Assembly (NCBI GenBank): GCA_944989445.1
Contig: CALYLW010000322.1
Coordinates: forward strand, 217,723-281,722
Direction: 5' to 3'
DNA: 64,000 nt
DNA from: Ampullaceana balthica
Taxonomy: Eukaryota > Mollusca > Gastropoda > Lymnaeidae
Every line of letters starts with the position of its first letter. The stretch's first letter is position 1. The position numbers and the translations under genes were made by a program. Below the pieces are notes generated by a model. It did not search any database. It saw only the letters and a program-made list of their open reading frames with translations, and was not told the origin of the DNA. Positions 3,209-61,204 of this stretch are shown one piece after another.

Positions 3209-3502
3209 GCCAAATTTCAATGAAAGTCAACAACATAGAAACGTCCAGGAATAAAGTAGTCCGTATAGAAAAAGGCAAAACTCTTGACATACGATGCGAT
3301 CTACTAAACAACAAACTACCAGTTAAAATGACCTTGGCACTAAACGATGAGTTCAAAATGAATACTGTAAGGAAAGCCCTGATATTTCATATACGAGTCA
3401 CGACGTGCAGTCATTCGGGGATATACAGTTGTAATGCAGATTTCCTTGATAGAATACCGATAGTTACTGCTTCGAACTCCATCTCCATTGACATTGCATC
3501 TT
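3209..3502 (+). CDS. Gene A exon: Ig domain 1
   Basis: The exon follows AG at 3207-3208 and ends before gtaagt at 3503; phase 1 at both ends. The B-strand cysteine lies in the motif LDIRCDLL and the F-strand cysteine in SGIYSC. An additional cysteine sits exactly eight residues before the F-strand one (CSHSGIYSC). The canonical Ig core tryptophan is absent. The exon has the same length (294 nt) as the gene B exon at 58091-58384 and is about 55% identical to it in protein by hand count. Extracellular, immediately before the linker exon. Confidence 0.85.
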
Positions 3503-6500
3503 GTAAGTATTGGTTGACATTATTTGGAAAGAGGACTCACATGACTGACTCACATGACTGACTTACATGACTGACTCACCTGACTGACTTACATGACTGA
3601 CTCACCTGACTGACTTACATGACTGACTCACATGACTAGCTCACATTATTGACTTACATGACTGAATCGCATGACTGACTCACATGACTGACTCACATGG
3701 CTTATCAAATGACTGACTTACATGACTGACTCACATGGCTGACTCACATGACTGACTCACATGGCTGACTCACATGACTGACTTAAATGACTGACTAACA
3801 TGACTGACTCACATGACTGACCCACCCGACTCACCATCCATCTTCAGTATCGACATTATTCGACATACTTGTCCCTTCAATCCATCCACCCGCGTCATTC
3901 TCTATCTGTTTTTCTCTCTGCGTCTCTCAATAACTTTCTATGTTTGTATCTCTGTCTGCGTCTCTATGTCGTTATGACTCCATCTCTCTCTACTTCTCTC
4001 TATCTCTTTCTGTCTATCTCTCTATCATTCAGTCTCCATATTTCTCTGCCTCTATCTCTCTATTATTCAGTCTCCATATTTCTCTGCCTCTATCTCTCTA
4101 TCATTCAGTCTCCATATTTCTCTGCCTCTATCTCTCTATCATTCAGTCTCCATATTTCTCTGCCTCTATCTCTCTATCCTTCAGTCTCCATATTTCTCTG
4201 CCTCTATCTCTCTATCATTCAGTCTCCATATTTCTCTGCCTCTATCTCTCTATCATTCAGTCTCCATATTTCTCTGCCTCTATCTCTCTATCATTCAGTC
4301 TCCATATTTCTCTGCCTCTATCTCTCTATCATTCAGTCTCCATATTTCTCTGCCTCTATCTCTCTATCATTCAGTCTCCATATTTCTCTGCCTCTATCTC
4401 TCTATCATTCAGTCTCCATATTTCTCTGCCTCTATCTCTCTATCATTCAGTCTCCATATTTCTCTGCCTCTATCTCTCTATCATTCAGTCTCCATATTTC
4501 TCTGCCTCTATCTCTTTATCATTCAGTCTCCATATTTCTCTGCCTCTATCTCTCTATCATTCAGTCTCCATATTTCTCTGCCTCTATCTCTCTATCATTC
4601 AGTCTCCATATTTCTCTGCCTCTATCTCTCTATCATTCAGTCTCCATATTTCTCTGCCTCTATCTCTCTATCATTCAGTCTCCATATTTCTCTGCCTCTA
4701 TCTCTCTATCATTCAGTCTCCATATTTCTCTGCCTCTATCTCTCTATCATTCAGTCTCCATATTTCTCTGCCTCTATCTCTCTATCATTCAGTCTCCATA
4801 TTTCTCTGCCTCTATCTCTCTATCATTCAGTCTCCATATTTCTCTGCCTCTATCTCTCTATCATTCAGTCTCCATATTTCTCTGCCTCTATCTCTCTATC
4901 ATTCAGTCTCCATATTTCTCTGCCTCTATCTCTCTATCATTCAGTCTCCATATTTCTCTGCCTCTATCTCTCTATCATTCAGTCTCCATATTTCTCTGCC
5001 TCTATCTCTCTATCATTCAGTCTCCATATTTCTCTGCCTCTATCTCTCTATCATTCAGTCTCCATATTTCTCTGCCTCTATCTCTCTATCATTGAGTCTC
5101 CATATTTCTCTGCCTCTATCTCTCTATCATTCAGTCTCCATATTTCTCTGCCTCTATCTCTCTATCATTCAGTCTCCATATTTCTCTGCCTCTATCTCTC
5201 TATCATTCAGTCTCCATATTTCTCTGCCTCTATCTCTCTATCATTCAGTCTCCATATTTCTCTGCCTCTATCTCTCTATCATTCAGTCTCCATATTTCTC
5301 TGCCTCTTTCTCTCTATCATTCAGTCTCCATATTTCTCTGCCTCTATCTCTCTATCATTCAGTCTCCATATTTCTCTGCCTCTATCTCTCTATCATTCAG
5401 TCTCCATATTTCTCTGCCTCTATCTCTCTATCATTCAGTCTCCATATTTCTCTGCCTCTATCTCTCTATCATTCAGTCTCCATATTTCTCTGCCTCTATC
5501 TCTCTATCATTCAGTCTCCATATTTCTCTGCCTCTATCTCTCTATCATTCAGTCTCCATATTTCTCTGCCTCTATCTCTCTATCATTCAGTCTCCATATT
5601 TCTCTGCCTCTATCTCTCTATCATTCAGTCTCCATATTTCTCTGCCTCTATCTCTCTATCATTCAGTCTCCATATTTCTCTGCCTCTATCTCTCTATCAT
5701 TCAGTCTCCATATTTCTCTGCCTCTATCTCTCTTTCCCAATTGTGTTCTTCATGTTACTTTCTATCAATCTATCTCGGTCTGAATCTCTAATTCTGTCTG
5801 ACTCCATCACTCTGTCTCTCTATCACTCAATTTCTCTCAACCTCTCTCTAGCTGTCTCTGTATATCTCTCTGCAACTCAATCTCTATTTCTTTGCCTCTC
5901 TTTTTGTCAGTCTATCTGTTTCTCTAATATCTCATCAATTACTGACACTCCTTTTAACAGAACGTAATTGTGTCCTACTTGTATTAATTATTTATTTCTA
6001 TTGTATAACTTTAGTTATAGCTTTCAATGTTGACAGTAAATTGGTTTTAATTAGCTGAATCAGACGATTCATTCCTAGCTTTAATTTCAAATGGGGAGAA
6101 ATATAATTTCTATGTGTTTATTTTCTGGTATATGGAAAAAAAGAACGTGTTATTATGCCTATGTTTATTCCGGTACTAGACTGTTGTTTCTTTGTATTTG
6201 ATCGAAATATCAACTTTCAGGATATTTATATTGACATATATCATATTGAAAGGTAAAGACATTAACCTTATTCTGTGATGTAAGTTATATTTGATTTTAT
6301 TGTCGTTGACTATAAATAAATAATATGCGTATTCATGTTTTTACGGACAGGTGCAAATGCTTCTGAAATTGATAATTCAAGCTATAAAGTAGGTATGTTT
6401 CTACAAATATACAATGCTTTTTAAACGGAATAATTATTACCAGTATGTGTACATATATTCTTTATGTATGTATTTATGGCTGCCGTCCGTTCTCAATGGA

Positions 6501-9500
6501 CGATGGCGTTGGCTCTTCCTCCCCCCCCCCAAAAAAAAATTATCCTGGCTCATCTCTCTTCACTCATGGCTGTTAGGATAGCTTCCGCAACTTGAATGCC
6601 CTTATGCACCCTGGACCGCCAGAGGGTGAGCTCCACAACCGTGGCTTCCCCAATCTTATCTTCGATGCGCGCCAGTAAAATGTCTTTTTGCAGACGCCCT
6701 TGTAGTGCAGAAATAGGGTGACCTCTTTTTTCAAACCAGTGGTCAGCTCACCGAAAAACAGGGCTATTTGAATACGCTACGAGCCTATCCTGTGGACATA
6801 TCCAAACCACCACAGGCGCATTGCACTCAGGGTTGAGTGCATACTCATAATTTGCCTCCTCCTGTGTACCTCCACATTTGTGATTTTATCTTGCCACTTG
6901 ATGTGTAGGATCCTACGCAAGAATCGCATGTGGAAACTGTTAAGCAGCCTAGCGAAGGTCGTCCAGCAGTGGCTGCCATAAAGGAGTGTGCCAAGCACGC
7001 AGGCGTGGTACACAGTGATTTTCCTCCTATCAATGAGCTGTGCTTTGTTCCACACTCTTTGATTTAGCCTAACGATTCGACCTTACCGATGCTAATTTAT
7101 ATATTATTTTACGTGGAGAGTTTGCTTACCGTGTGATGTTACCGCCATAGTAGGTGTAATCTTCGACAAGATCCAAGGTAATTCCCTAATTGGAGATTGC
7201 TGGGAGGCAGTCTGTGCCATGTCTTAAAATTGGTCTGTTTTAGGCTTATCGATAAACCTGAATTCCTTGCATGCCTCTGAGAATTTCTTTACCAGTAGTC
7301 TAAGACCTTTCTCTGATTTTGCGGTAAGAGTTACGCCATCCACGAAGAGCAACTCTCTGACTAATACAGTTTTCACTTAATCCTCGCACGGAACTGACTA
7401 ATGTTATATAGCTTCCATCCGCTGTGGTATGTATGTTCACATACTTGGAGCAATCCACGAAAGCATGTTGCAGTAACACCGAGAAGAAGATAAAACATAG
7501 TGTTGGTGCCAGTACGTTGCCCTGTTTGGCTCCACTACACACTGGGAAGGGTTCTAATGTGACGTTATCGAAGAGCACTGTGCTGTGCATATTGGTGTGA
7601 AAAAACTCGATGATGAGAAGTCGAGGCGGACATCCTATTTTTTCCAGTATAAGGAACAGAACCTTGCGGCTGAACAGTTCAAATGCCTTTGTTAAATCTA
7701 TGAGTGCAACAAAGTTTGCTTTCTGTTGCTCCCGACATTTCTCTTGCAGCTAAAAGAGTAAGAAAATCATGTTCATTGTTGATCGGCCAGCCCGAAAACC
7801 GCTTAGAGATTCCGGATAGACATTTTGTTCCAGATTTTGCAGTCATGCAAGGACAACTCTGGCAAAGGTATTTCCCAAAATATTCAGTAGGGATAACTCG
7901 ACTGTTATTGCTATCGCTGCGATCACGTTTGTTTTTATAAAGCGTTACTACTTTTGGAATCGTGCATGTCCTGTGGGATGTGGCCATGTTCCCAACAATC
8001 GCATATGTTTTCGTCAGAGGCTTCAGTAATGCTGGTATGCCATGCTTAAATACTGGTGCAGAAATCCCATTGTTGCCTGGAGCTCACTATTACTCAGCTG
8101 ATCAATGGCCTTTGTAGGCTACTCATGTGACGGTGGCGCATCAAGCTGATCTACAACTGGTAAATCTGGTATTCTCTCTAGGGAAGAGTCATTTACGACA
8201 TTCTGTCTTGCATAGAGTTCCAGGCTGTACTCAGTCCAGCGCTGCATCTGCTTGTCTCGTTTTGTGATCACCAAACCTGTCTGTGACTTTACATATACGT
8301 TATATGCTGTATACGTTTATTATATTAACATTTAACAATGTATTAATTTTATAAACAACAATTCCATGATTTTCTTTCACCACATATTTCATCAGATAAG
8401 GGAAGACCTGTTTGCTCTGGCCCAAACACAGAATTATCTGAGGGAATCTGTTTTATATACTTTGAAGGAAAAGCCACCTTTAAAAAGGCAGAGGTATTTT
8501 CATTATAACATATGAGAAGTAAATTCGTTTTAAGAAAATAGTTGACTAGCTCAAAATATCACATAGACTAGGAATGCGATAACGACTTTTAAATAAAATA
8601 CGAAAGACAAGCAAATTATTGGCTCCATATGGATTAAAATAAATTTAAAAATTTTATCCAACCAAGAAATATTATTCCCGTTGCGCTTTTCCCTGTAACT
8701 TTTGAAAATTCTACTCTTTTCTTATGTACTGTGTCATTGTTTGTCTTTGCTTTTATTTTATTTTTTGGTTTTTATGTTGTTGTTTTTTTTTCCGTTCCTT
8801 TCTTTTATCTTTACGTAATTATTTAGCCTTGATAAAGTATGTCTTAATAATTTAAATACAAATGAAATACTTGTGTAAGTATGGTATATGATTTGTATTG
8901 ACGAATGCATTAGCTGAAAAGTATGTTTTTTGTATTAGTTATTTAATAAAGCTTTTTAAATTATTGTTTTTTCTTTACACAATTTGTTTGTGTAATTTGT
9001 ACTAGCGCAAATGTATGAAGGAAACATCAGCTTTTTATCCATGGTCTTGTTCAACTATGTGCTTGTTATATACAGCCACTCTTCTATATTTTGTAATCTT
9101 TTGTAACATACAACATTTGTATCTATTTACACATTTTTAACACACTTTTACGGCATTTTGGCTAATGTTTTACACTCGTATATAATATACAGGAGAAGTG
9201 CCAACAGAAAGATGCAGTTTTAGCTGCCTTTAAATCATTGAGCCAGATGCAGAACATCTTTAAAGGATGGAGAGACAGACAATCTGGTCAGTGTAAGGTT
9301 AAAATATTTCAGTTACTGGTATCTATACTAATACAGAAGAAAGCCCTGATTCAATCAACACTAATTATCCAATTCTACGTGTATGTGTCAGCGTAAATCG
9401 TTAGAAATATGTTGAGCACATCCCCGCAATGGTAATAAGCAAAACAAAAATTAAATTATCATTCACTGGGTACCAGGGGCAAAATCTATTTTTTCCTTAA

Positions 9501-12500
9501 ATGAGCTATATGAAAATTAGTTTAAATTCTGGCTACTGTTTAAATGGATGTATTTTGACGAAACATTATTTTTTTTTAAACTTGATAATCCATATTAAAC
9601 GTCTGTAGGGCAATTTACTCCTTCTAGCCATTCCTTTTGTGCAGTGTAGCTCAAAATCATTTTTTTCCTAAACAATTGATTCCGCATTACTCATTCCATT
9701 CTACTCGATTAGACCAATGTTAAAACAAGTGATGCATCTATCATAGTCTAGATTGAAATCAATAGAAGTTTTTAACTTTACATCTTACACCTATTGGGCA
9801 AGAGATCGATGCCCTTAGGATCCTTTTTGTCTTATGTGATCTTTAAACTATGACTGTATTCATCCGATTGCCTTAAACTTAACAAAATTGTTGAGTACAT
9901 CAAATTGCTGTGACGCGGTGGTCGAGTGGCAGCGCACTGGACTGTCGCACCGATGGTCACGGGTTCGAATCCGTGTGAAGGCAAGGGTTTGTTCCCGGGG
10001 CCTAGGGCGTCACTGAGCTGGGTAATGCGTGGAACCCACAAAGCCATGGCCTGTGAACGCTGCATCACTTGCCAACAGATCATCTGTCATGGTCTGTGGA
10101 CGCAACTATCTTCTGCATAGAAGGAGCGTCTGTATAGATAAGATAAGATAACAAAAACTTCTGGCATATTTTTAGTACCACTTAGTAAGAGCTGGGAGTG
10201 GGGTGGCAAAACTATCGTTTTCACAACATAAGTTGTAAAAATATATTTTAAACTGTGTCTACTGGGTAATTGGATAAATGATGATGCAATTTGATACATA
10301 AGAATATGATTGCCCATATTAAAATTCTATAAGGTACTAATCTCATAATGTCACCTCCTTTTGGGCCTAGGGCCGAAATCTTTCATTTATAAACGTTTAA
10401 ATCTTTTTCCCCATAATTTTTGGTAAATAGTCTTTACAAATATTGACACATATTTCCATCATGATTCAGTTTGAAAATTTCAAGCCTGTGATCTTTACAT
10501 CTTGCAGCGTTTAGACCAGAGCCCTAAATGTCAGTTTAATATCAATTTAATTTAACACGCTTTTGAAAAAAAAGACAAACAATTACATCCATCATTATCC
10601 AGATTACCTTTCCGCTTCAGAGCGCAAGTATTTTGCTAGTTATACATAATTCGGATTTTTTCATAATAAAATATGCAACCTATTAATTGAAAAGAAAAAT
10701 ATCAATCTTTAAACCACAATTGAAATTTCTTATTAGTGAAACGAACATGCCTAATAATATGAGCACAGTGGCATGGCTGGCGGAAACACAATCACGTGTT
10801 TGAATCTCTCTGAAAACAAAGATTTGTTCCGTAGAATAGAGTGTCCATGAGTCCACCCAGGGATTTGTTACGTTGTCTAGAGCAGTGCTTCTCATACTTT
10901 TTATTATTGCGGACAGGCAGATAATTTTTGCATTAACACTTGGTACCGGTGAATTATTTTTCATGTACTGACGTGGTAGCGAAATGTCCTGTCGTAGTAA
11001 CTGCTGCGGACCGGCATCGGATGGCTCACGAACCGACACCGGTCCATAGACAAAAACTTTGAGAAGCACTGGTCTAGAGTGTCCCTGAGTCCACCCAGGG
11101 ATTTGTTCCGTAGTCTAGTGCAGTAATTTTTTTAGTGATCCGCCAGGATGAAATTTTAATTTATATAAGTATAGTATCTATACATTTCCTGCACAAGGGT
11201 AGCAAAATTTTCAGTAGTGGTCCGCGGCTAAGTCACAAATTGTTCAAGTGGTCCTTGAATCTGATAAAGGTTGAGAACGACTGGTCTATAGTGTACCTGA
11301 GTCCACCCAGACAAAATGAGAACCAGACAATAGTGATAAAAACGTTTCTGGATATTCTGTCACGAAATCCCTTAATAGCCGTGCCCTATTAAACAGCGTC
11401 ACTTACCCACAGACCCGCATGGTCTGTGCTTTGCTATCCTACATGTGGATCAAAATCAGCATCCACGAGCCTAGTGCTCTTCATGAGTCTTCCAGGAAAA
11501 TCCCCCTCAGCTATCCCGCCCCCTTTCCCAAAATAAAATTAACAGCTGAGAGCACCCCCCCCTGCCCGGAATACTCTTTTGTGTAGACGGAGCTTCAGTT
11601 ATAGATGAGATAAGATGGCTCCATCTGTATCTGCAACTTCTGTTTACTGAAGATAGTTTGAATTCAATTCAAGTTAACCAAAAATTAAATAAATATTTTT
11701 ATATTTGATTCTTTTGTTTTATCAACATTAATTTTGATTGCAGAATGCAAATCAATGGTAAAATAAATGTGTGGCTCATACACACAGAAAATATTTATTG
11801 CAATAATTCTGGTTAAGGTCCGTTATGGTTGGGGTTAAAATTTTATGAAATTTGTTATTAATATTTATTTTTGGTCAGTTTGGGTTGGTGCCAATAATCT
11901 ACAAGGTTCAGCAATCTTCAAATGGATCGCCAATAAAAAGATATTGAGACCTGATTCACCAATGTTGTCCAAAGAACCGACCAGTAAACAGGGACCAGAC
12001 AGTTGTCTTGTGAGGAACACAAACCTTTTTCTGTCTCAATCAGACTGTAACACGATGTATCCTTATATGTGTATGAGTTTATACTCAGGTAAGAGAATTG
12101 TTTCAAACTAATTCTTAACATAACTTTTCTAAACGCTTAGGTTTTCATTTTATTATCATGACATCGAAATGTATGTTTTTAAAGCGATTTAGATTTTGGT
12201 TTTAAAACTAAATTTTATAAAGAAGAAAAATTAATGTTTTATCTTATGTAATTAATATGTAGGCGTTCATTTGATCTAACAGAAACACATTTCATTATGT
12301 ATATATTTATTTCGCCTAAACCGACATGTGAAAACGAGCGTGACAAATGACCCTCGCTAGGGTCGACACATCACAGTTGGCAAGCGCGGTGGGATGAAAA
12401 GAAGACAAATAAAACAAACCCGTAAAAACAAAGTTTTTGACTATAAATCCCTTATATATGAGACATAACTAACAGTATTGATTATTTTCAAACATTTACA

Positions 12501-23734: not shown

Positions 23735-23826
23735 GAAATCAATGCGCCTTGTTAATAGACATTTGTTGATGTTATTTTTAGAGCTTGCGGGATATGTCAC
23801 ATATAGATTAATCTTTAATTTCTTGT

Positions 23827-25668: not shown

Positions 25669-25679
25669 GTGTCAGGAAA

Positions 25680-49100: not shown

Positions 49101-51908
49101 CTCGCTGTACACGAAGAACACTATGATTACGTTAGATTAGTTTAACCCTAGATAACATTTCTGAAAGATGTAACAAAACGTAACAATGACTGTTGGAAAA
49201 GTTCAATATGGCGACTAGGGATATCGTATTTTTTAAAACTATTTGCCGTATTCGAATAGTTTGGAAAAGAATGTTTCCGGATTCCGGATTTGGATATCTC
49301 CAGATTTAGGTGTAAGAGCTAAGGTGGTTTATTTTAATACTATCTATTTAGTATTTAATAGTATATATTAAAATATTTTTTATCCAACATATGAGGAGTA
49401 TGTGCTATTTACAATGACAATCTGTGACACTGTCAATGTCAAAAATTAACATTTTACAATGAATTGAATGAACGAACGTAAACGAAGTTCAGCGATCTGT
49501 GCATTGTGTACCTTGTGTTTTCTTGAGTGTGTAGTGTGGTGTACACGAAGTTGTAATCTAGGGCCATAATAAAAACTGCTCTTTTATTCAGACGACTTTA
49601 GCTTATTTTGCCGTTAGTTGACTACGTTTGTTATTTTAAGAAGGAAAGTAATATCTATATTTGTAACTTTTTAACTTAATACTTTTTCTCGTATGGAAAT
49701 TGTTTTGTTATATTTTGCATGGATTCGAATGATTTTATGAACAATGCTTTTTAGTTTGTTTATTATGTTCTATATTAATAATTTAATGTATCACTTAATT
49801 TGTTATTTACCTTATTTTTATAATTGTAATATTCACAATAGACTACCGTCTAAATTATAAGTCTGAATAAGAAATAAAACGTGAGACAAGCAAATATTTA
49901 TGTGTAAGTTCGCAAGTCAAATCAGTATTGCCATCACCATTTAAAGTTAACTTTTGAAAAATTAACGATTAATTAATCTTTCCTTTCGATTAAAACCCAA
50001 AATTAAAAGTCATGATGTCATAAGTAACACTTATTAAAAGTTCTTGTTGAAAATCTAAATATCACTGGAATGTCTCATTAACATGTCATCTTTTAACCAA
50101 CTACGAAAAAAGACAAGTGTGTTGACCTTATTTGATACAAGTGATCAGCGGGTCTAATTGGCTATTTAACAAGCCAAGCTGAACAATCATTCACATTGAA
50201 CTGAGGTAACTGGTATGCGCAAAACGGTCTTGGCAAGGAATGGCATTATCGGATATCGGTGTTCATTAAGTTTACACCAGTGTAGAGGGTTAATAGATTC
50301 AGGAAATTTAATCTCCATTTATTTGTAACGCAATAATTCATAAGAAGAGCTCTTGTCATTTTCTGTCTCTGAGTCAGACTCCATTACTGCAATTAGCTTA
50401 ATACGCTTTTCATTTTGTTTGACAAGTAGACGAAATGTTAGAACCATGGTAGTGGTAGGCAAACTTTATCAACATTTTGAACCTTCCCATCAGTCAATAT
50501 TTTAAAACAAAATGTTGTGTAAGCATCAGGAAATTTCTTATTATTCATCTGCCGTTATTTTTGTTTACTTTTTGACTTCCAATTAATCGTTAAAAATAAT
50601 TAAATTGTAACATTTTTTACGATCTATATAGAAATTATTCATTAATTTTGGCAGCCCTAATATACATACAATTTACTTTGTATATGTTCCTTCGTAACAC
50701 TATGTAACATTTTAGAAAAAACACTGTTAAAACAAAAAGCCTTAAAAAAAAGTACGGCACAAAAAATAACTATTTTTGAACATCCACATAATATTGTTCA
50801 ACATAGAAATGAGATTTAAATTTTCGCTATTTGTCTCTACATTGTCTGATTATTTACTACTAGACGCCCCGCGGCGTAGCATACGCCGCAGACTTGCTCA
50901 TGGAGAGTGCAAAGAAAGTGGAGAAATAACGGACACAAACTACAGCACGAAGAAATCAAAACAACGCGAGTGAACGTCGGTTTGGGGGGGAGGGGACTGC
51001 CAACTCATTGTTGGTTTCGAGACGTTTGCAGGCGAAATTCGGTATACCCCTAACTTCTATTAAGTCAGCTATAAAACGATAATCGGTTTAAAATCAGAGT
51101 TACATAATCGATAATTGGTTAAAAAAAACAACAACACGGAATGCAAAACCCTAAACATGACTAACCCTCGCTAGGGTCGGCCAATCACAATTTATGTTTA
51201 AGGGATGGTAGTATTAAATGGGAGGCGGGTAACAACAACCTTAGTGTGCTTGTCTCCATGTTTACTCGCTATTCTTTACTTACTTTGTGCTGCTTTTTGT
51301 GTCTGTACGTTCATCCCCCCCCCCAATCAGTTCTTTGCACTGTCTATTATGAGCAAGTCAGCGGCGTATGCTACGTCGCGGGTCTCTCCAGAGTTCCTTC
51401 TTTTCATTCACTCACAGTCGTTTGCCCAAACCCATCCCATTTCGACAACTGGATCTTTCAGGAAGTCTTCACCCGTAACTAAATCATTAGCGGCGTATGC
51501 TACGCCGCGGGTTCAGCTATTGTTAGCAATAAAGAGGTAAACGAACGGGCACATACAGACACTTTTAAAAAAAATGTATTTACTGGGATTTGAACCCAGG
51601 ACCATCTAGGTATGAGACGGACGTGATAACCAGTACACTACAAATCTCACATTTACTGTGAAGGAACAATGCAAGTAAACGCAAGTGCATTGTTGCCACC
51701 CACTCCCCCCTTTTGTTCATTTCATCACACCACGCTTTCCAACAGTGTTTAGTTGACCCGAGCGAGGGTCATTCGTCATGCTCAGTTGCACATACTTGCA
51801 GCTTGCTTGCCTCTCGTGGTCCCATGAAGAGAATTATATATGTAGATATGGTAATAAAATCAATTGACATTTTTTTTTAAACTTACGTCTTTTTTTTTAC
51901 GGGTAATA

Positions 51909-51943
<35 letters not shown>

Positions 51944-54900
51944 CCTAATGTGGCTAAAAATGAATTAATTACGACAACAGACAAACTACACAGTTAATGA
52001 AATACTACATGAATGAAGGTTGCACAATATATAATTTAAAAAACGCGAATATTTATTTTCCAAAGTAAAAAAATTAAAATTACAGATTTAGAGTGACTGA
52101 AGAAGAACCGGACACAATTGCTGGTTCTGAAACTTGGTTAAACCCAACAATTATCAGAAGGAATGTTAATAAAAGCAACTTAAATTTTTTTAGAAAAGAT
52201 AGGTCAAAAAGTGGTGAAGGAGTTCTACTTGCAATAAAATCAACTATAATAGCTGTAGACATTGCACTACGAACAAATCTTAATATTGAGTCTCTTTTTG
52301 GTAAACCAGTTACACTGAACTCAGCACCACTTATTGTAGGCTGCAGATACAGACCACAGACCTGTTACACTGAACTCAGCACCACTTATTGTAGGCTGCA
52401 GATACAGACCACAGACCTGTTACACTGAACTCAGCACCACTTATTGTAGGCTGCAGATATAGACCACAGACCAGTTACACTGAACTCAGCACCACTTATT
52501 GTAGGCTGCAGATATAGACCACAGACCTGTTACACTGAACTCAGCACCACTTATTGTTGGCTGCAGATACAGACCACAGACCAGTTACACTGAACTCAGC
52601 ACCACTTACTGTAGGCTGCAGATATATACCACAGACCAGTTACACTGAACTCAGCACCACTTATTGTAGGCTGCAGATACAGACCACAGACCTAAAATAT
52701 ATGAAGGATCTTTGTAGTCAACTAACATTCAAAAAAGAAAATAATAAAACGCTGAGTATGGGGAGATGAGGCTTTAACCTTCAGGATATAAATTGAAACA
52801 GCTGTGCAATAGATAACTACAAAACTATTTAAGAAATAAACGAACACTTCATAGACACCTAGCACCAAAAACCTAGAACAAATAGTCACAAAAGCTACAA
52901 GCAAAAATAAAACACTAGATTTTATATCAACAAATTGAGCAAGACGAGTGATAGATTGCGAAATAATTTCTGGACTGTCCCAATGCAATGAAAACTAAAA
53001 TATGTAGGATACCTAGAAGAATAATCTATCTATAGAATAAATATAATTTAATAAAATTAAACCAAACAGCTGCTAATTTGGAAAAAAAAATTCCTATGTA
53101 GATTTAAAATAAATATTCCAGAAGAAGAAATTAAGAAATATACAAACAGATCAAAATCTATGATGGATGAGAAAGTTTAAAAAAACAAACTAGCATCAAT
53201 TAAAACTAACAAATGCTGGTTTAATTCTAAATTATAAAGAAAATATTTGCAAAATAAAAAACAACTCTATTTTAAAAATTTTAAGCTACCAATTTAAGAA
53301 AGGATACAAAAATACTAAACAATTAAGGGATACCAAAAATACATAAAGATTAAACACTTGACACAAAACTTAGTCGAGTACTCCAAAATGAATATATATA
53401 GTAAACTAATTAATTGAGTTTCACATGATAGGTTTTTCCTAAAGTTGAAGTCGTCATTGGACATTACGTTTGTCCAGGGGATTATCTATTTTACGATGTA
53501 TTATGTGTTCTATATGTTTACATATGATACTAGTAATTCAATAGTTTATCACTTAAGCAAACATAATGTCCTTTGTCCACATCAACACAGCTTTAGGAAA
53601 AACCGATCATGTGAAACACACTTAATTGGTCTAATATGTTATCTGTCAGAAGGCTTAGACAATAATAATAAAATAAAATGACAAGACTTCTCAAAAGCAT
53701 TTGACAAAGTCACCCACTTTAGTGTACTCAAAAAACTTAATTACTTTGGAATCTAAGGTCCCTTAAAATGCCTTACATCACGGGATCCAAGATTTCTATT
53801 TGGGTAAAGAGCGAATTGTTGTAATTAATGGATCTTAATCAGCACAAATAAAGGGTAACTCAGGTGTTAATAAAGTAGCTGCTACAGGACCGTTACTCTT
53901 TTTAAATTATGTAAATGAATTACCCAACAACATCTCAACAGGAAGAAAAGTTAGGTTATTTGCTAATGATTGTATAATCTATAGAGCAATTAAATCAGAA
54001 CAAGACAGAAAAACCCAGGCCAATTGATATTTCACACGTCGACTATACGTGAAGGCGTTGGTGTTTTCCCCACGTTCCGAGGCCAACTCAGAATTTATTG
54101 ATAAGATTTATGCGCATCTGTCCACCCAACATCGGTGTGGGTGCAGAGAAGACGGGGAGAGGGGAGCGTTAGGTCGTGCAGGGCTCGTCCTACTATAAAA
54201 TCCTACAATGTGATACACCTTGTTCACCGTAAGTCCCCTATGATTATAGACACACTGCCATGTTAACATTATAAAGCCACGTTATTAAAAAATAACAGAG
54301 AAATTCTCTCTTTTATTAGTGATTACCTATCAATTGTTTCGGTTCATCTTATTTTATTGTTGTGTAGCTGAACCATGATATGTCGAGCCCTTAAGAGGGC
54401 AAAATTAAAATGTGTGTTATCAATAATTTTAGTATTGTCTCTAAGCAATAAAAGGTTGCGTCAAGTTTCCATTCGTACCATGAGACTTGGTTGTGTTCTT
54501 AAGAACGACTAGTATTTCTAAAATATAAAAATCTCTATTTTCAATATATAAGTAATAACCATTCAGTGCAATTTTAACTATAATGATAAACGCCATAATT
54601 GTTTTAAGATAAATTTCTATTTTGACTGCGTATCTTCATTGTCGACAGGAGCTAACGTCCAAACCGAATTGTGGGTAGGAGCCAGTGCTTTTGAACATGA
54701 AAGGCGTTTCATGTGGTTAGCTGACAACATGGAACTTGAGGAAAAATCTTCTCTTTGGGAAGAAGGAGAACCAAACAATAAGTATTATTTTGAAGATTGC
54801 GTCGAAATAAGCGCAAGTGATAGGCTGAGTGATACCACTTGTGCCATTGAAAAGAGGTTTCTCTGCATGTCAGTGCAAGACGGTAAGAATTTCAAATAAT

Positions 54901-57900
54901 AAAAATAATATTTTCAAAAATTAAAGTATTATAGAAATGTAATAATGCTACGTAAAACCACATGCATTAGCCAAAGGTCTTTCTCATTAAAAGACAATAA
55001 ACAACAACAAATAAGTAAATAAATTAGAAAGATTATGCTCCTAGGGAGTACTTGTGTTTTTATCGGAATTTGTAGAGTTATAAGTTGTGTGATTAGTTAG
55101 AAGTTGTGTGATTAATTAGAAGTTGTGTGCAGTGATTAGTTAGAAGTTGTGTGATTAGATACAAGTTGTGTGATTAGTTAGAAGTTGTGTGCAGTGATTA
55201 GTTAGAAGTTGTATGATTAGTTATAAGTTGTGTGATTAGTTAGAAGTTGTGAGCAGTGAATAGTTAGAAGTTGTGTGATTAGTTAGAAGATGTGTGATTA
55301 GTTAGAAGTTGTGTGCAGTGATTAGTTAGAAGTTGTGTGCAGTGATTAGTTAGAAGTTGTGTGCAGTGATTAGTTAGAAGTTGTGTGATTAGTTAGAAGT
55401 TGTGTGATTAGTTAGAAGTTGTGTGCAGTGTTTAGTTAGAAGTTGTGTGATTAGTTAGAAGTTGTGTGATTAGTTAGACTGTCAGATAAGTTCGAAAGTT
55501 TATGCAGTTATTTGCTTTGGGAATAGTCGAAATATTTGCACAGTGTTCAAGGGTGAGGTATGTTTAGACAGTTTTTGTAATGGCAACTGGTTGAAAGATG
55601 ATGTCATAAGTTTAGTTCGGAAATTTTTTTAAAATTGTGTGTGTCATTATCATTATATTCAGTCTTGTTGCAGTCGTTGAGGGGGGGGGAGCATGAACAC
55701 ATCATCAGACGATCTTCACATTTGACTATCTTGAACGGCGGCCAATAATTCATGCAACCTCATCTCTCACCATACCTCTCTGTTGTAATCTCATCTCTCA
55801 CCATATCTCTATGTTGTAATCTCATCTCTCACCATACCTCTATGTTGTAATCTCATCTCTCACCATACCTCTATGTTGTAATCTCATCTCTCACCATACC
55901 TCTATGTTGTAATCTCATCTCTCACCATATCCTCTATGTTGTAATCTCATCTCTCACCATATCTCTATGTTGTAATCTCATCTCTCACCATACCTCTATG
56001 TTGTAATCTCATCTCTCACCATACCTCTATGTTGTAATCTCATCTCTCACCATACCTCTATGTTGTAATCTCATCTCTCACCATATCCTCTATGTTGTAA
56101 TCTCATCTCTCACCATACCTCTATGTTGTAATCTCATCTCTCATCATAACTCTATGTTTTAATCGCATCTCTCAACATACCTGTATGTTGTAATGTTGTA
56201 ATATCAAGTCTCACCATACATCTATGTTGTAATGTTGTAACCTCATCTCTCATCATACCTCTATGTTGTAATCTCATCTCTCACCATACATCTATGTTGT
56301 AATACCCACAACGCCGCTGTCGACCTTTTCGCCGACCCTTTTCTAAAGTGCAGGATGATTTTTTTCGGGCTGTCATGCATGGACCAGACTATGCCATGTT
56401 TTTAATTTAGGCTATTATATCCTAGGGTAATAATTGAGGGATAAGAGCGGAATGAATGGGAGAATGTGTGCAACACTGAATGTTATGAAAGGATTTATGA
56501 ACAGTTAAGGATTATGGAGAATCGGAGAATATGTTAGCTCTATAGAAATATAAATGGCTTAAGTATTTTTGACTTGGTTGTAAGGTATTATTTACGGTAA
56601 AATTAAGGTTAGAAATGGTTGAAGGATGTGTGCACTTATTAATGTAACAAATGGAATTATTTGTGTAGTCTTCTGATTAGGAGAGTTTAGGCACGTTTCA
56701 CATTGTATGAGGTTAGGAACAGTTGAGAGATTTTTGTTGTGGTTATGAAAGATGATACAAATATATTTATTGGTTAGGGTTATGAAAGATGTCTATATTT
56801 TTTTGGTGTTTATGAGAGATGTCTGTATTTAGTGTATATCAGAGATGTCTGTATTTGCGTATTTGGTAGGAATTATGAAATATTTCTGTATCAGGGGTTT
56901 TGAAAATGTCTGTATTGATAAGTAATTTTGAAATATTTCTGAATTGGTGTGAGAATGTCAGTATTGCTTTGAGAATGTCAGTATTTTTGTGAGAATGTCT
57001 GTATTGGGTTGAGAATGTATGTATTTGTTTGAGAATTTCTGTATTGATTTGACAATGTCTGTATTAGTGTGAGAATGTCTGTATTGGTGTGAGAATAACT
57101 GTATTGGTGTGAAACTATATGTATTGGTGTGAGAATGTATGTATTGTTGTGAGAATGTCTGTATTGGTATGAGAATGTCTGTATTGGTGTGAAAATTTCT
57201 GTATTGGTGTGAGATTGTCTGTATTGGTTTGATAATGTCATTATTGGTTTGATAATGTCATTATTGCTTTGAGAATGTCTGTATTGGGTTGAGAATGTCT
57301 GTATGCGTTTGAGAATGTCAGTATTGTTGTGAGAATGTGTGTATTGGTGTGAGGATGTCTGTATTGATGTGACAATGTCTGTATTGGTGTGAAATGTCTG
57401 TATTGGTGTGAGAATTATTGTATTGGTGTGAGAATGTCTGTATTGGTGTAAAAATGTCTTTTTTGGTGTGAGAATGTTTTATTAGTTAGACAGTAAGTAG
57501 CTACAAGTTTGTGAATAAATAAGAAAAATATTTTTTTTTAATTTCCTTTTTTTTAAAAGGACAAGTTTCTATTTTCTTCATTTTAGTCCACTTAAAAATC
57601 ATGATTTTTAAAAATCTTTGTTTACCTCTATTTATTATACCAAACACCTCATAAACGCACTCCCAAGGTTTAAATACCACAGGGATGAGATCACGGGGTC
57701 AACTCGGCTCTTGAATGTAAAGAATAGCAGACGAATACAGATTGTATATTGAGATCAACTATAAAATGCATTCATTTAATTACAGTACATTCGATCGATC
57801 TGAAATTTTGAAACAATGCATTGTCATCCAAGATCTATCTGTGCTAAACATTTTGAGAATCATCAGCAGTGGTTTAATTTTACGTTAAAATATTTGTCGG

Positions 57901-60900
57901 AAAATACTAACAGTGTGACTTAAATAAAAGTGTGCAAAATTGTCTAACTTGTTTCTTAAACTGCAGACAAAAAATCCTAAAATCACTTGCATTTCCGTGA
58001 TACACCCCTAAAAAAATAATGTCATTTTTTCATCATTGTTTTTTTTTATTAAAAAAAAATTAACATTAAATATTTTAAAATAAATTGTAGATTTAATTTC
58101 AATGAAAGTCAACAACATCGAAATGTCCAGGAATCACGTTTTACATGTAAAAAACATGAAAAATCTCGAAATACGATGCGATCTGCTAGACAATGAACGA
58201 CCAGCTGAGCTTACCTTGACGCTAAACGATGAAATTTTGATGAAAAGTGAGAGGAGATGTCTGAGTTTTGACATACCAGTTACAAAATGCAATTACTCCG
58301 GAATTTACAGATGTAATGTTGATTTCCTGGGCAGAAGAGCTGATGTTACTGTTTCGACCTCGATCTCCATTGTCTTTCATCCTTGTAAGTATTGTTTGAC
58401 ATTATTTAGTATTTTTAATCATCATCATCAGTCCCGTAACCGGAAGTTGGAGCATACATCTGTATGGTGTGAGATAATGAGGTCTGGCCCATATTCTAAT
58501 GCTTATCAGTCGGTTTGTAATTGGTGTGCAGCTAATGAATGATGCAAATATTTCCTTCCTGACAAGGAACGATACGCCATATTGATGTTTGGAGTCATCA
58601 CCGCTGAACCAAATTGTCTGCCCTTCGTCCGTTGATGTTTCACTAAACCCTGTCCAATGGACTTCGGCAAGTCCTATGATGTCCCAACTGTACCGTTGTA
58701 ATTCATGCTTTAGTTCTTTTTCTTTGTCCACACTGATAAAGGGTTCTCACGTTATAAGTGCGTATATTTATCCCTTCTCTGGAGTTCTTTTACTTTTCCA
58801 CACTGATACAGGGTTCATGTGTTCCAAGTGCCTATATTTATCGTTTCCCTAGAAAGCCTAATCGAGTCGGTTCCATATTTATAATTAACGCTCCCATTCT
58901 GATGACTTGCACTGGAGTGCGTTGTTGTTAATTCGTTCCTCGACCGATACGGCATGGATAACTTTATCTATGGGCTTAAAGACTTGGTGGCGCCCAGCTC
59001 CTCTCCAAGTCGTTTATTTGTGATCAGGGTTTACTCCTCTAGCTTTTCTCGAGATTGAGTATGACCGCAAGGCAGCGGAGATTTGTGCTCCGAGTTTTCC
59101 TTTTCTTATGTGAGCAGCGTTACATGGTTAATGATGTTCTATATTATCTATCTTATCTTATTTTATCTTATCTATACAGACGCTCCTTCTATGCAGAAGA
59201 TAGTTGCGTCCACAGACCTTGACAGATGATCTGTTGGCAAGTGATGCAGCATTCACAGGCCACGGCTTTGTGGGTTCCACGCATTACCCAGCCGCCTAAC
59301 TACATGTAGTGTAGTGTTAGGTAAACATTCGGAGCGGGGTGACTCAGGGATGCCCTAGGGGAACAAACCCTTGCCTTCACACGGATTCGAACCCGTGACC
59401 ATCGGTACGACAGTCCAGTGCGCACTGCCACTCGACCACCACGCACGTGGTTTTAAAGCACTATTGGTCCGATTAAGATTTTTAAGAAAGCTTATAGCTA
59501 AATTTAAGGCTAATAAATACTTGCATGAATAGGTCAACCTTAGATGACGCCTTTTTCGATGTATTTGAATGGAGATTTGATCTTATCTTTTAAAATTTCA
59601 ACTAAAAAAGAATTGCTTTAAGTTTTATGTGTTTTTTTTAAAGTCCGCCATCTTGGTATTTTTAATATATAGAAATGCATCAATTTTTGTATCTATATTA
59701 TATCCAAACTTTGTGAACTAATATTTTTTTCAAATCTATCCGATGTTTTTAAACGTAACAATTTATGAAAAAAAAACTACAAACCTGACTCACTTGACTT
59801 AATCACATAGCTCACATGACTGGCTCACTTAAATTACTCACATAGCTCACATGACTGCCTCCCGTGACTTACTCACATAGGTCACATGACTGGCTCACTT
59901 GACTTACTCACATAGCTCACATGACTGACTCCCGTGACTTACTCACATAGCTCACATGGCTGACTCCCGTGACTTACTCACATAGCTCACCTGTGTGACT
60001 CACCTGAATGACTCACATTACTGTCTCAACTACCATCTCTAGGATCGACAAACTTCTCACTTAAACCATCGGGCCCTGTGCGTCTCTCTCTCTGAGTGTG
60101 TGCATCTATTTATCTCTCTCATTTTTTCTTTATCGCTCTACATCTTTCTATATCTTTATATTTCTATTTCTCAAACTGTCTATCTCCGTTGAACTCTGTT
60201 TCCCCTGTCACTTTCTATCGCTCTATATGTGTCGAACTCTCTATCTCTGAATGACTCTAACTCTCTTTCTATCTCTCTCTCTCTCTCTGTCTGTCTATGG
60301 CTCACTATCTCCCAAAATCTTTCTATGACTCTGACTATCTCTCTGTCATTCAGTCTCTATCTCTTATTATCTATTCGTCTCTCTCTCCCTCTCTTTCTGT
60401 CTCTTTAATATATCATCAATTACAGACACTCCATTATTAATTTCTGGTCTAGCATTTTATTAAAGATTTAAATTTTGAAAGTAAATTGGTTTTAATTAGT
60501 TGAATTAGGAAATCCATGCCATGCTTTAATTCCAAAATGGGAAAAAGAGAATCCCCATGTCTCTTTTCTGGCATACGTCAAAAAGAAACTAAAAGAGTTT
60601 ATGATAGCAATACAGTATAGCTAAAGTAAAACTCTCGTGAACTGTGAATATTTTCTAGGGTTTTTTCTAAGTTTATTTTTGAATCACTTTTCTTAATATA
60701 TTTCCATGAGTATTTTCACGAATTTTTTTTATTTACTTAGATTTAATTTTATTAAAATTTGATTTTAGACCATTTCTTTGTCTATTTTTATTTACATGTA
60801 TCATATTGAAATGTAAAGGCTTTACCTTATACTGTGACGTAAGTAACATAAAATGTCTTTGTATTTGAATATAAATGAGTAATATACAGAACATATCGTT

Positions 60901-61204
60901 TGTCCGGACAGGTGGAAATGGTTCTGATATTGATAATTCAAGACATATTGTAGGTATGTTTGAACAAATACACAATATTTTTATAGCTCAATAATCGTTG
61001 CGAATGTTTACCTATTTACTTTATGAGTTTGGTTTAATAGCTTTTAATTATGTTTAAATTAATAAATAATAATTCAAAGATTGGCTTTCACAAATTGTTT
61101 CATCAGATAAGCGAAGACCTGATTGCTCTGGCAAGGACACCGAATTATCTGAGGGAAGCTGTTTTACATACTTCAAAGAAAGAGCTATCTTTAAAGATGC
61201 AGTG
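28104..61204 (+). CDS. Gene B: paralogous Ig/C-type-lectin receptor (3' end outside window)
   Basis: Exons: 28104-28176, 38876-38905, 39444-39514, 46303-46393, 54649-54882, 58091-58384, 60912-60953 and 61107-61204. They sum to 933 nt, an exact 311 codons. Order: signal peptide, short N-terminal exon, CTLD1 (three exons), Ig1, linker and CTLD2 exon 1. Splice phases and the lengths of the shared exons equal those of gene A. Introns reach about 10.7 kb. After 61204 the match to gene A stops at about 61523, where a Helitron-like end and a duplicated block begin. CTLD2 exon 2 is not found, so the downstream part is outside the window, displaced, or lost. Whether gene B is functional cannot be decided here. 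Confidence 0.78.
28690..30235 (+). mobile_element. RTE-like LINE, 5' region and endonuclease, 3'-truncated
   Basis: A non-coding leader (28690-29240) is followed by endonuclease-like reading on the + strand: WDIIGFAEVRWTGFGETST, HRYGVAILVRKEI, NLTIIQVYAPSSDHSDDNL and IIMGDLNAKVGP. Frames are broken. A partner copy lies inverted at 58400-59700. Located in the first intron of gene B. Confidence 0.8.
30285..31060 (-). mobile_element. hAT transposon remnant, C-terminal domain
   Basis: Minus strand near 30540-30610 reads ANLCERLFSSAGDIVNKTAH, the hAT dimerisation signature. Ends carry aatcgttaa-type repeats. A more decayed relative is at 49940-50665. Confidence 0.65.
32112..35730 (+). mobile_element. 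RTE-like LINE, near full length, with 11-bp target duplications
   Basis: Endonuclease (YLLGDFNARVGADQKAW, LVLTRRSDLASVLQTCSYHS), reverse transcriptase (IEHLRNGKAPGNDGIPAEVL, FVAFIDLTKAFDLVSRKGLL, FADDADLTSHSEIGL) and a C-terminal region (LRCLRRILHIKWQDKIK-like, RLWWLGHAGRM) occur in order. Direct repeats ttttgctgcat flank it at 32101-32111 and 35731-35741. The coding frame has several shifts. A SINE sits inside at 34783-35151. Confidence 0.9.
34783..35151 (-). mobile_element. tRNA-derived SINE nested in the LINE
   Basis: The minus strand carries ggtggtcgagtggtagcg and ggttcgaatccatg boxes. A ctcact target duplication occurs at 34777-34782 and 35152-35157. Removing it rejoins the LINE frame (VWNNAQLT with DRTKITVYQF). 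Confidence 0.88.
35886..36300. mobile_element. MITE with GGCCGTTTTGTC-type inverted repeats
   Basis: The left end has acaaaacggcccc motifs repeated (35886-35957). The right end has the inverse gggccgttttgacggg (36283-36300). The AT-rich interior has no coding. It interrupts the hAT pseudogene exactly between two conserved segments. Confidence 0.72.
37263..38655. repeat. 27-bp minisatellite, two subtypes
   Basis: 37263-38040: gatgtggtgatgtaagtcaa plus ggttaat, about 28 units, with an internal higher-order duplication (the ttaagattaatgatgtggtg variants recur about 270 bp apart). 38040-38655: gatgtggtggtgttggtcaa plus gattaat, about 22 units. False threonine-rich ORFs arise on the minus strand. 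Ends about 220 bp before exon 38876. Confidence 0.93.
38876..38905 (+). CDS. Gene B exon: short N-terminal segment
   Basis: A 30-nt exon between tattacag (to 38875) and gtaagt (38906), phase 1 at both ends, encoding ACKLPHTSMM. It contains one cysteine. It joins the signal-peptide exon to CTLD1 in frame. Small size makes it the least certain exon of gene B. Confidence 0.6.
39444..39514 (+). CDS. Gene B exon: CTLD1 part 1
   Basis: The exon follows ttttttcag (to 39443) and precedes gtaaaa (39515); phase 1 in, phase 0 out. It encodes ESRCFFLTYHREKYLDAR, the lectin N-terminus with its first cysteine and the A of the AxxxC motif, which becomes complete (ARTQC) when joined to 46303. Confidence 0.75.
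39571..40945. repeat. Tandem repeat of about 660 bp, 2.1 copies
   Basis: acatataagacgcattagtt, followed by ccctaataactcaagatcca, recurs near 39571, 40235 and 40873. Each copy contains several gggggccgggggccc blocks. In the intron after CTLD1 part 1; possibly a non-autonomous Helitron or similar. Confidence 0.8.
41214..41347. repeat. 67-bp tandem duplication
   Basis: gtgtccgtgtgag at 41214 and 41281, followed by ggggtatctaataaaataaa in both copies. Confidence 0.85.
41880..42190 (+). pseudogene. Helitron Rep fragment
   Basis: The + frame reads FNQFLNAGKLTHQFVVDAFF and KTAANRLKCVLINQSELIAE, then ILPSSF. This is the segment also present at 43735-43960 of the larger Helitron relic, so it is a separate fragment inserted beside it. 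Confidence 0.7.
42297..44718 (+). mobile_element. Helitron relic: Rep N-terminal region and 3' terminus
   Basis: In several frames on the + strand: MANVCLKCSALKWKGE, CCSSGKVKLPPILKPPEPL, VYYHPGPLHPVNAVDRKYLQ, LPSSFSGGLRYMHEYAQDGM, YVTKGSDAAMFAVANEMPNR and GRVYTVHPYNRDAFQMGLLL. These are the Helitron-like N-terminal domain and following region; the helicase half is missing. The 3' end gccgggtacttgccccCTAG at 44718, followed by T, fits a Helitron terminus. Frameshifts and stops throughout. Confidence 0.82.
42419..42815 (+). repeat. 69-bp in-frame repeat in the Helitron protein, about 6 copies
   Basis: Encodes SRKIRSATELPDQQKDLSKG with small changes, 23 residues per unit. Length divisible by three, basic/acidic composition. 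The repeat ended in a stop in the fifth unit. Confidence 0.88.
44970..45060. repeat. Short interspersed element (tatagcgctgtatcccag)
   Basis: tatatagcgctgtatcccag and gggctcacagcgctttacat recur at 15045-15090 and 48495-48545. Too short to classify. Confidence 0.6.
45072..45420 (+). mobile_element. Helitron-like 5' end fragment
   Basis: Starts with TCCTATATAATAAAAGGAC after an A. The next roughly 170 bp match 61524-61694. No 3' terminus was identified for this copy. It lies about 350 bp after the 3' end of the decayed Helitron, in the CTLD1 intron. Confidence 0.5.
45640..46000. repeat. Interspersed repeat family member
   Basis: Same family as 18965-19480: ttggatgacaatgcattgtt, atgcatttttagtttatctc. 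Confidence 0.6.
46303..46393 (+). CDS. Gene B exon: CTLD1 part 2
   Basis: The exon follows gtaacag (to 46302) and precedes gtaagt (46394); phase 0 in, phase 1 out. It encodes TQCQENGLVLARIYSNSQL and onward, a clear CxxxGxxLA lectin helix segment. The exon has no long ORF around it and is recognised by motif and phase. Confidence 0.78.
46680..48220. repeat. 47-bp minisatellite, about 30 copies, seeded in a LINE tail
   Basis: Unit ctcctcagcaatggctcccc plus acgtacctttgaccgccaga plus aggtgcg. The leader 46680-46830 resembles the 3' tail of the LINE at 6480-6660 (tcaatggacgat, gaccgccagagggtg). The GC-rich array gives false ORFs on both strands. Located just after CTLD1 part 2. Confidence 0.92.
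48230..48820. other. Intron sequence, one short repeat copy
   Basis: Only the tatagcgctgtattccagc element at about 48495-48545 and a short aataat run are recognised. Confidence 0.4.
48827..49051 (-). CDS. Unrecognised 74-codon open frame
   Basis: Minus-strand ATG to TGA-type stop, non-repetitive composition (NPPEQYQTEGSGLGKYAKEV). It could be a retrocopy fragment inside the gene B intron, a transposon piece or chance. No family recognised and no regulatory support. Confidence 0.22.
   Translation of the reverse strand: MSVALAHANPPEQYQTEGSGLGKYAKEVPRMCNGQTNTENVYWISWKIPNINRKISVFCQLLANHNITQVETNV
49060..49935. other. Intron sequence, nothing recognised
   Basis: AT-rich, no repeat or coding signature that I can identify. 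Confidence 0.35.
49940..50665 (-). mobile_element. Decayed hAT-like element
   Basis: Shares gttaacttttgaaaaattaa, gacaagtgtgttgacctta and ttttgacttccaattaatcg-like text with 30285-31060, and ends near ggcagccctaa. Coding is unreadable. Confidence 0.6.
50862..51790 (-). mobile_element. Non-autonomous Helitron-like element
   Basis: Minus-strand 3' end: the hairpin gcggcgtatgctacgccgc followed by ggggcgtCTAG and T (plus-strand actagacgccccgcggcg at about 50860). The interior includes the family seen at 13450-13990, with a tRNA-like segment. The hairpin motif recurs at 51360 and 51490. The left (5') end is not certain. Confidence 0.6.
51572..51645 (-). other. tRNA-Val-like relic
   Basis: The minus strand reads tgtagtgtactggttatcac, then cctgggttcaaatcccag. 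D-arm and T-arm are tRNA-like, but the acceptor and anticodon stems pair poorly. It sits inside a repeat shared with 13450-13990, so it is a SINE head or tRNA pseudogene, not a working tRNA. Confidence 0.55.
51917..51945. repeat. AT dinucleotide microsatellite
   Basis: Pure (at)n run of about 28 bp. Confidence 0.9.
52090..54030 (+). mobile_element. Jockey/CR1-like LINE, decayed, with internal 55-bp repeat
   Basis: Endonuclease N-terminus (IAGSETWLNPTIIRRNVN, LNFFRKDRSKSGEGVLLAIK, LNSAPLIVGCRYRPQT), then scattered pieces and reverse-transcriptase motifs near the end (FSKAFDKVTHFSVLKKLNYF, VRLFANDCIIYRAIKSEQ). The catalytic FADD reads FAND. Many stops. Different family from the RTE-like copies. 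Its 3' 280 bp are also in the duplicated block at 61694. Confidence 0.8.
52309..52693. repeat. 55-bp tandem repeat in the LINE endonuclease, 7 copies
   Basis: Units start with gttacactgaactcagcacc at 52309, 52364 and every 55 bp after that. The period is not divisible by three, so the frame shifts each unit. A unit encodes the end of the LNSAPLIVGCRYRP strand. Confidence 0.92.
54649..54882 (+). CDS. Gene B exon: CTLD1 part 3 with EPN motif
   Basis: The exon follows gtcgacag (to 54648) and precedes gtaaga (54883); phase 1 at both ends, 234 nt. It has WVGA, FMWLAD, WEEGEPNN, EDCVEIS, a cysteine in TTC and the terminal FLCMS. EPN is the loop motif associated with mannose-type binding in C-type lectins. 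The usual WND before the penultimate cysteine reads LSD, so calcium binding is uncertain. A second copy lies at 62596-62829. Confidence 0.87.
55060..55480. repeat. 19/24-bp minisatellite after CTLD1 exon 3
   Basis: Units agttagaagttgtgtgatt, and a longer form with gcagtg inserted, intermixed. The duplicate at 63007-63427 has the same order of short and long units, showing how recent the copy is. Confidence 0.9.
55740..56310. repeat. 31-bp minisatellite, about 18 copies
   Basis: Unit tctcatctctcaccatacct plus ctatgttgtaa. The partner array at 63700-64000 runs off the window and differs in unit order and variants. Confidence 0.92.
56560..56930. other. Gene B intron conserved with window start
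   Basis: Counterpart of 1-210 and 2673-2760. It contains the uninterrupted ggttagggttatgaaagatg site where gene A carries the hAT insertion, consistent with an empty site in gene B. Confidence 0.6.
56930..57485. repeat. 20-bp minisatellite, about 27 diverged copies
   Basis: Unit ggtgtgagaatgtctgtatt with frequent changes; intron upstream of gene B Ig1. Confidence 0.9.
57530..57850. repeat. Interspersed repeat family member, inverted
   Basis: acagtacattcgatcgatct, gaaacaatgcattgtcatcc: reverse orientation of 18965-19480 and 45640-46000. Confidence 0.62.
58091..58384 (+). CDS. Gene B exon: Ig domain 1
   Basis: The exon follows tgtag (to 58090) and precedes gtaagt (58385); phase 1 at both ends. 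It matches gene A Ig1 in length and pattern: EIRCDLL, then CNYSGIYRC with the extra cysteine. It begins with the same SMKVNNIE stretch as gene A. No core tryptophan. Confidence 0.86.
58400..59700 (-). mobile_element. RTE-like LINE 5' region, inverted relative to 28690-30235
   Basis: Minus-strand frame 58402-58731 reads ELQRYSWDIIGLAEVHWTGF and YGVSFLVRKEIFASFISCTP, the endonuclease start. The leader (58860-59140, 59450-59700) matches 28690-29240 in reverse, interrupted by a SINE. It directly follows the Ig1 donor of gene B. Confidence 0.8.
59150..59450 (-). mobile_element. tRNA-derived SINE nested in LINE leader
   Basis: The minus strand has ggtggtcgagtggcagtg and gggttcgaatccgtgtga, body gcgtggaacccacaaagccg-like, and a gataa-repeat tail (plus-strand ttatcttatctatacagacg). 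Same family as 9903-10150. Confidence 0.85.
59790..60410. repeat. Degenerate gactcacatagctcacatgactg array and CT-rich tract
   Basis: Gene B counterpart of the 13-bp array (3534-3835) and of the CT-rich flanks of the 38-bp array. No 38-bp expansion here. The CT tract includes a (tc)n run near 60275. Confidence 0.8.
60912..60953 (+). CDS. Gene B exon: 14-residue linker
   Basis: A 42-nt exon between cag (60909-60911) and gtatgt (60954), encoding GGNGSDIDNSRHIV. Same phase and length as gene A 6351-6392. Flanking intron sequence is also similar between the genes. Confidence 0.76.
   Translation: MEMVLILIIQDIL
61107..61204 (+). CDS. Gene B exon: CTLD2 part 1
   Basis: The exon follows catcag (61101-61106) and precedes gtaatt (61205); phase 1 in, phase 0 out. 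It contains TELSEGSCFTYFKERAIF, strongly like gene A 8396-8493. The next intron matches the gene A intron until about 61523 and then breaks off into a Helitron-like end. Confidence 0.78.

Follow-up and report, generated by a model that had tools for sequence, protein, structure and literature searches.

The 64,000-nucleotide stretch of DNA analysed here (the window) carries, on its forward strand, exons of two genes in the same orientation, which we call gene A and gene B. Gene A, predicted at 3209-22111, comprises nine exons, which in 5' to 3' order are an Ig1 exon (3209-3502; 294 nt, phase 1-1), three exons of a C-type lectin domain, CTLD2 (N-terminal third, 8396-8493, 98 nt, phase 1-0; middle exon, 9193-9292, phase 0-1; C-terminal exon, 11879-12088, phase 1-1), an Ig2 exon (14427-14714, phase 1-1), an Ig3 exon (17762-18061, phase 1-1), two Ig-like exons, Ig4 (18567-18917, phase 1-1) and Ig5 (20908-21237, phase 1-1, the second Ig cysteine missing), and a membrane-span exon (21994-22111, phase 1-2 with a GTAAGT donor, or else running to the stop TAA at 22113-22115). 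All nine have AG/GT borders and agree in phase, and they join into a single frame of 695 codons with zero stops and 10 N-glycosylation sequons; for comparison, 4 to 7% of random window segments of 210 to 351 nt are open in a given frame. The 5' end of the gene lies beyond the left edge of the window. In 1-3209 a hydropathy filter gave two signal-peptide candidates, both lacking an acceptable donor, and a pattern search for the N-terminal third of a further lectin domain, CTLD1, gave three rows 5' of gene A that overlap one another at 2071-2180.

The initial annotation had treated the 98-nt exon at 8396-8493 as a linker. In fact, a CTLD begins in this exon (...VCSGPNTELSEGICFIYFEGKATFKKAE), and the domain is completed by the middle exon (EKCQQKDAVLAAF...), which joins the C-terminal exon. 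In the joined gene A model, Pfam finds Lectin_C at residues 123-229 (E 6.6e-9) and Ig_3 (E 4e-16), both above the curated cut-off, while single exons give Ig_3 for Ig1 (E 1.8e-4, below the curated cut-off), PF00047 for Ig2 (E 0.001) and Ig_2 for Ig3 (E 1.2e-5). Sequence profiles thus back the predicted CTLD and Ig1-Ig3 of gene A. Among the best 60 of 70 PDB sequence matches, the top one for CTLD2 is the macrophage mannose receptor, with a whole-sequence E of 6.2e-9 that adds up three individually weak stretches. As for Ig4 and Ig5, neither is significant in Pfam as a single exon (Ig_3 E 0.08 and 0.17, with the unrelated families ACC_central, 0.013, and DUF2107, 0.018, scoring better, respectively), and Ig5 was not recovered by a profile built from the other Ig exons. 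Structure models of the two, compared using Foldseek, match mostly Ig-fold chains (among the best 50 of 1853 and 1976 rows), with query TM of 0.33-0.60 and, among the rows listed, one match each at E<=1e-3; VIA Z maxima are 9.1 and 8.7, slightly above the 7 to 8 typical in cases without a clear match. These models, of modest confidence and the sole basis for calling the two exons Ig-like, support the fold and nothing further. Finally, a protein search using the gene A model yielded 4188 word-sharing candidates and zero homologues at E<=1e-3, in a search limited to shared 5-residue words, which distant relatives may escape; the database does include animals, as Helitron and LINE queries (see below) drew named animal proteins.

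The predicted membrane span, PCLIFLLLVLASVAIYNIV, has a 19-residue Kyte-Doolittle mean of 2.46 and zero charged residues. The frame of its exon ends in IYNIVKKTV-stop, with the GTAAGT donor overlapping the end, and consequently the tail of gene A is either very short or continued on a further exon. Many weak in-phase acceptors exist for such an exon, with no criterion to pick one, and none was accepted. The short signalling-type tail proposed earlier therefore finds no backing here: the frame closes on KKTV-stop, no tail exon was accepted and no signalling motif was established.

Gene B is represented by four exons, namely a CTLD1 middle exon (46303-46393, phase 0-1), a CTLD1 C-terminal exon carrying an EPN motif (54649-54882, phase 1-1; Lectin_C E 1.4e-8 alone), an Ig1 exon (58091-58384, 294 nt, phase 1-1; Ig_2 E 0.005) and the N-terminal third of CTLD2 (61107-61204, 98 nt, phase 1-0). 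These exons are open, have AG/GT borders and match in phase, and Lectin_C is found in the gene B model at E 3e-10. The CTLD1 middle and C-terminal exons match PDB mosGCTL-1 (E 1.1e-7) and, among the best 60 of 103 PDB matches, also collectin-11 and CD209-like chains. An EPN motif implies Ca2+/mannose-type binding; gene A CTLD2 has EPT where CTLD1 has EPN. The 5' part of gene B was searched for in several ways. A pattern search for the N-terminal third of CTLD1 gave zero rows in 40000-46303, and looser patterns in 22200-46303 gave eight rows, none of which was accepted by eye. A CTLD profile run on 1977 six-frame pieces recovered N-terminal thirds at 8347-8505 and 61073-61255 only, all other matches to this part of the profile having E >2. 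In 44500-46303 the hydropathy filter left zero signal-peptide candidates. An ATG at 46086 opens MFTTWILYMLLSYYLEAPHALKCSG (...LKCSG), but this frame closes at a stop codon (46161) short of the middle exon (46303), and the candidate failed the hydropathy filter. In other words, the signal peptide previously assigned to this protein was not accepted for gene B in 44500-46303, nor within 1-3209 for gene A.

That the two genes are same-orientation paralogues with shared exon lengths and phases, as first proposed, is borne out by the exons present in both, i.e. Ig1 (294 nt, 1-1) and CTLD2-N (98 nt, 1-0). Paralogy was also assessed by a forward blastn comparison of 1-22200 with 44501-64000, which gave blocks at 6-207/56546-56745 (80%), 3063-3525/57953-58407 (72.4%, E 2e-60), 6223-6466/60783-61025 (76%), 8301-8703/61013-61428 (73.7%, E 6e-62) and 8782-8858/61457-61532 (86%). 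These blocks are collinear between the genes, introns included, and repeat-rich and dispersed blocks occur besides; of 20 block-shuffled controls, a single one produced matches at E<=1e-3, the strongest of them at 6e-5. Judged by these alignments, genes A and B are true tandem paralogues, beyond what chance would give. In Ig1, dN between the genes is 0.28 and dS 0.67 (NG86, 97 codons), as would be seen for a constrained coding exon, and in the CTLD2-N exon the two are about equal (0.21 and 0.23, NG86), at a length of 32 codons that is too short for a conclusion. The leftmost block, 6-207, is of particular use. Its only matches in the window at E<=1e-3 are the gene B partner and one 21-base match, and for this reason it is not a common repeat. 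In gene B, the partner block 56546-56745 is separated from the CTLD1 C-terminal exon on its left by 1.7 to 1.9 kb that include minisatellites of variable length, and, given the collinearity of block 6-207, the corresponding exon of gene A would be expected within about 2 kb to the left of base 1.

Several repeats and mobile elements occur in the window. An inverted LINE-like copy at 6472-8289, 72-78% identical to 33514-35731, sits in the gene A intron before CTLD2-N; the gene B counterparts of its flanks at 6466 and 8301 are adjacent (61025/61013), so its insertion or loss postdates the gene duplication. The LINE protein drew 727 matches, and among the at least 120 listed the best are about 60-63% identical and come from mixed animals, including three Biomphalaria glabrata rows, one Candidula row and no named spider. 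Helitron helicase fragments lie at 42900-44026 (+), with Helitron_like_N in 43541-44026 (Pfam, E 1.5e-22) and no Pfam family in 42900-43541. The encoded protein is 88% identical over 190 aa to protein P0001 of the orb-weaver spider Trichonephila clavipes and 92% identical over 171 aa to a protein from another public contig; in a molluscan host, such similarity would suggest horizontal transfer. In gene A, the intron between Ig4 and Ig5 has two stretches (at 18962-19410) that are 84-86% identical to sequence immediately 5' of the first supported exon of gene B (45665-46004); the first of them also matches three further places in the window and is on that account a dispersed repeat. Two arrays lie at or near splice acceptors. 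A 34-bp minisatellite at 17262-17780 (15.2 copies) runs into the Ig3 acceptor at 17762, and since TCTAGTGACT, which resembles that acceptor, is part of the repeat unit, many decoy acceptors may exist upstream of Ig3; between a 15-bp array at 20334-20896 and the Ig5 acceptor there are 11 bases. A 38-bp minisatellite at 4013-5733 (45 copies, 99% match) produces long open frames in three + strand frames, which are not genes. Rfam has one match at gathering level in the whole window, a tRNA at 51575-51647 (-, 35.9 bits), possibly a tRNA-derived repeat.

A feature absent from the earlier description bears directly on the state of gene B. Namely, a 7947-bp unit at 53747-61693 (+), holding CTLD1-C, Ig1 and CTLD2-N, is followed from 61694 by a second copy that runs off the window, such that 53747-56053 equals 61694-64000 at 98.57% over 2308 columns. 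The first 1950 columns hold 25 ungapped differences, of which 11 fall in the first 300 and 7 form one consecutive run near the end. The second copy includes another CTLD1 C-terminal exon (62596-62829, +), differing at 1 of 231 compared nt. The left border of the unit falls between CTLD1-mid and CTLD1-C, in what looks by eye, from its motif, like a LINE reverse-transcriptase fragment (a Pfam scan of 53839-54024 gave no family at E<=0.01), and the second copy starts 3' of CTLD2-N, before the expected CTLD2-mid. We considered whether the second CTLD1-C could serve as an in-frame extra CTLD-Ig module and rejected this, given that CTLD2-N ends in phase 0 and CTLD1-C starts in phase 1, with no middle exon between. 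The repeat is either an assembly artefact or a recent duplication. Its coding content is 626 nt (234 for CTLD1-C, 294 for Ig1 and 98 for CTLD2-N), which is not a multiple of three and would shift the frame if the unit were included, and for this reason gene B is misassembled, skip-spliced or broken.

It could accordingly be argued that gene B is decayed or misassembled, that gene A alone (or neither gene) is functional, and that the repeat arose either artefactually, through haplotype duplication, or as a recent tandem duplication without function. The near-identity of the copies, the border in an apparent retroelement fragment and the frame-shifting unit all point this way, as do the missing parts: an intact CTLD1 N-terminal third was not found, and no CTLD middle exon was found between 61204 and 62596. 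On the other hand, the intactness of the visible exons, with their borders and phases, speaks against decay, and the frame could survive through exon skipping. We regard the chances of this explanation as roughly even.

What, then, would these genes encode? The best overall explanation, to which we assign a probability of roughly 0.6, is that the pair are animal genes in tandem, whose products are type I membrane proteins with a single span and an ectodomain of C-type lectin and Ig domains, the intact order being most likely CTLD1-Ig1-CTLD2-Ig2-Ig3-Ig4-Ig5-TM. There is good support for gene A encoding a protein with several Ig domains, a CTLD and one span, and a two-CTLD ectodomain is plausible. 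Of the two CTLDs, five Ig domains and one span deduced initially, the gene A CTLD, Ig1-Ig3 and the span hold, while Ig4 and Ig5 are Ig-like by structure models and the CTLD1 of gene A would lie outside the window. The joined architecture is therefore shown in part, being assembled from two incomplete genes, one of them apparently impaired. In such a protein, CTLD1, which keeps the EPN of the Ca2+/sugar site, is predicted to bind glycans at the cell surface, CTLD2 has lost the motif, and the four membrane-proximal Ig or Ig-like domains could form a stalk or a second binding face. As the span is without charge and the visible tail very short, signalling would need a further tail exon or a partner protein. 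The mode of action may resemble that of the candidate receptors of Biomphalaria, which are hyperdiverse single-pass proteins with CTLD and Ig domains. One may go further and suppose that a stalk of four Ig domains carries two CTLDs of different chemistry, one with EPN and one without, in alternation with Ig domains, and that the CTLD introns act as exchange points in the array, unequal crossing-over between CTLD1 and CTLD2 creating new module counts; this we offer as an improbable, speculative extension.

The putative recognition role has a competitor, namely that the proteins serve in cell adhesion, during development or the wiring of nerves, and are not immune receptors. Among the Foldseek rows listed for Ig4 and Ig5 are Ig domains of FGFR, NCAM and KIT, a shared fold that shows no function, whereas clustered single-pass CTLD plus Ig proteins are reported, in the accessible part of PMC10875847, for the hyperdiverse Biomphalaria receptor candidates; a role in adhesion seems to us somewhat unlikely. 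Quite unlikely is a single CTLD per gene, with the two-CTLD protein an artefact of joining the 5' half and the 3' half of different genes: no one gene in the window has both CTLDs complete, but gene B has the order CTLD1-mid, CTLD1-C, Ig1, CTLD2-N, and gene A is collinear with it from base 6 on, which helps the two-CTLD deduction by predicting a gene A CTLD1 left of base 1.

How does the tandem CTLD/Ig pair compare with known systems? The macrophage mannose receptor family provides the top PDB match for CTLD2 and has several CTLDs per membrane protein, yet its architecture differs and it is not known to have Ig domains. A FREP-like C-terminal fibrinogen domain is not seen, as neither the gene A model nor that of gene B matches fibrinogen at E<=1. 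CREPs, as described in the available portions of PMC10075465 and PMC10875847, carry a CTLD at the C-terminus together with one or two Ig domains, the complete ones with a signal peptide and secreted; they share Ig plus CTLD with gene A, whose CTLD is, however, internal and accompanied by five Ig or Ig-like domains and then a span, so that the layout is not that of a CREP. The PTC2 proteins of B. glabrata, of 166 to 530 codons, are likewise products of clustered single-pass membrane genes, and differ in having no known domain beyond the span, as far as the accessible text of PMC7494358 goes. In the parts available of PMC12297450, PMC10140915 and PMC8861042 no closer architecture appears, PMC11426442 contains none of the terms looked for, and the literature searched (few subscription journals, and articles without supplementary tables), again available in part, names no receptor with two CTLDs and five Ig domains.

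The closest parallel is BSUD.12903 of Biomphalaria sudanica (LG16; orthologue BGLB024560 in B. glabrata), which the accessible part of PMC10875847 describes as a single-pass receptor with C-type lectin, Ig and TMEM154 domains and an optional, alternatively expressed FN3. It belongs to a hyperdiverse gene cluster in which many members have C-type lectin, Ig and FN3 domains together, and its ectodomain shows a nonsynonymous excess (PMC10875847, same portion). The existence of such Biomphalaria clusters of single-pass CTLD/Ig/FN3 receptors, on the evidence of that text, overturns the initial view that no described family fits. Both systems place CTLD and Ig in one single-pass protein (the span being predicted here), both form gene clusters, and the sizes are comparable, with 647 or 741 aa there (PMC10875847) and at least 695 aa for gene A. 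Unlike BSUD.12903, the gene A model has no FN3 or TMEM154 match at E<=1, in a model that excludes tail exons and with FN3 being optional in the counterpart; moreover, the CTLD here precedes four exons of Ig or Ig-like type, and another CTLD probably lies upstream of it. The likeness to BSUD.12903 is drawn from the described domain types, the single span and the clustering. By this analogy, genes A and B are probably a variant of the BSUD.12903-type kind, and their domain order may be new. For now, the window chiefly extends an already described kind; if the two-CTLD protein is expressed, it would add a domain order to the gastropod membrane-bound CTLD+Ig candidates thought to recognise parasites, and the tandem paralogues would permit tests of module gain and loss in such arrays.
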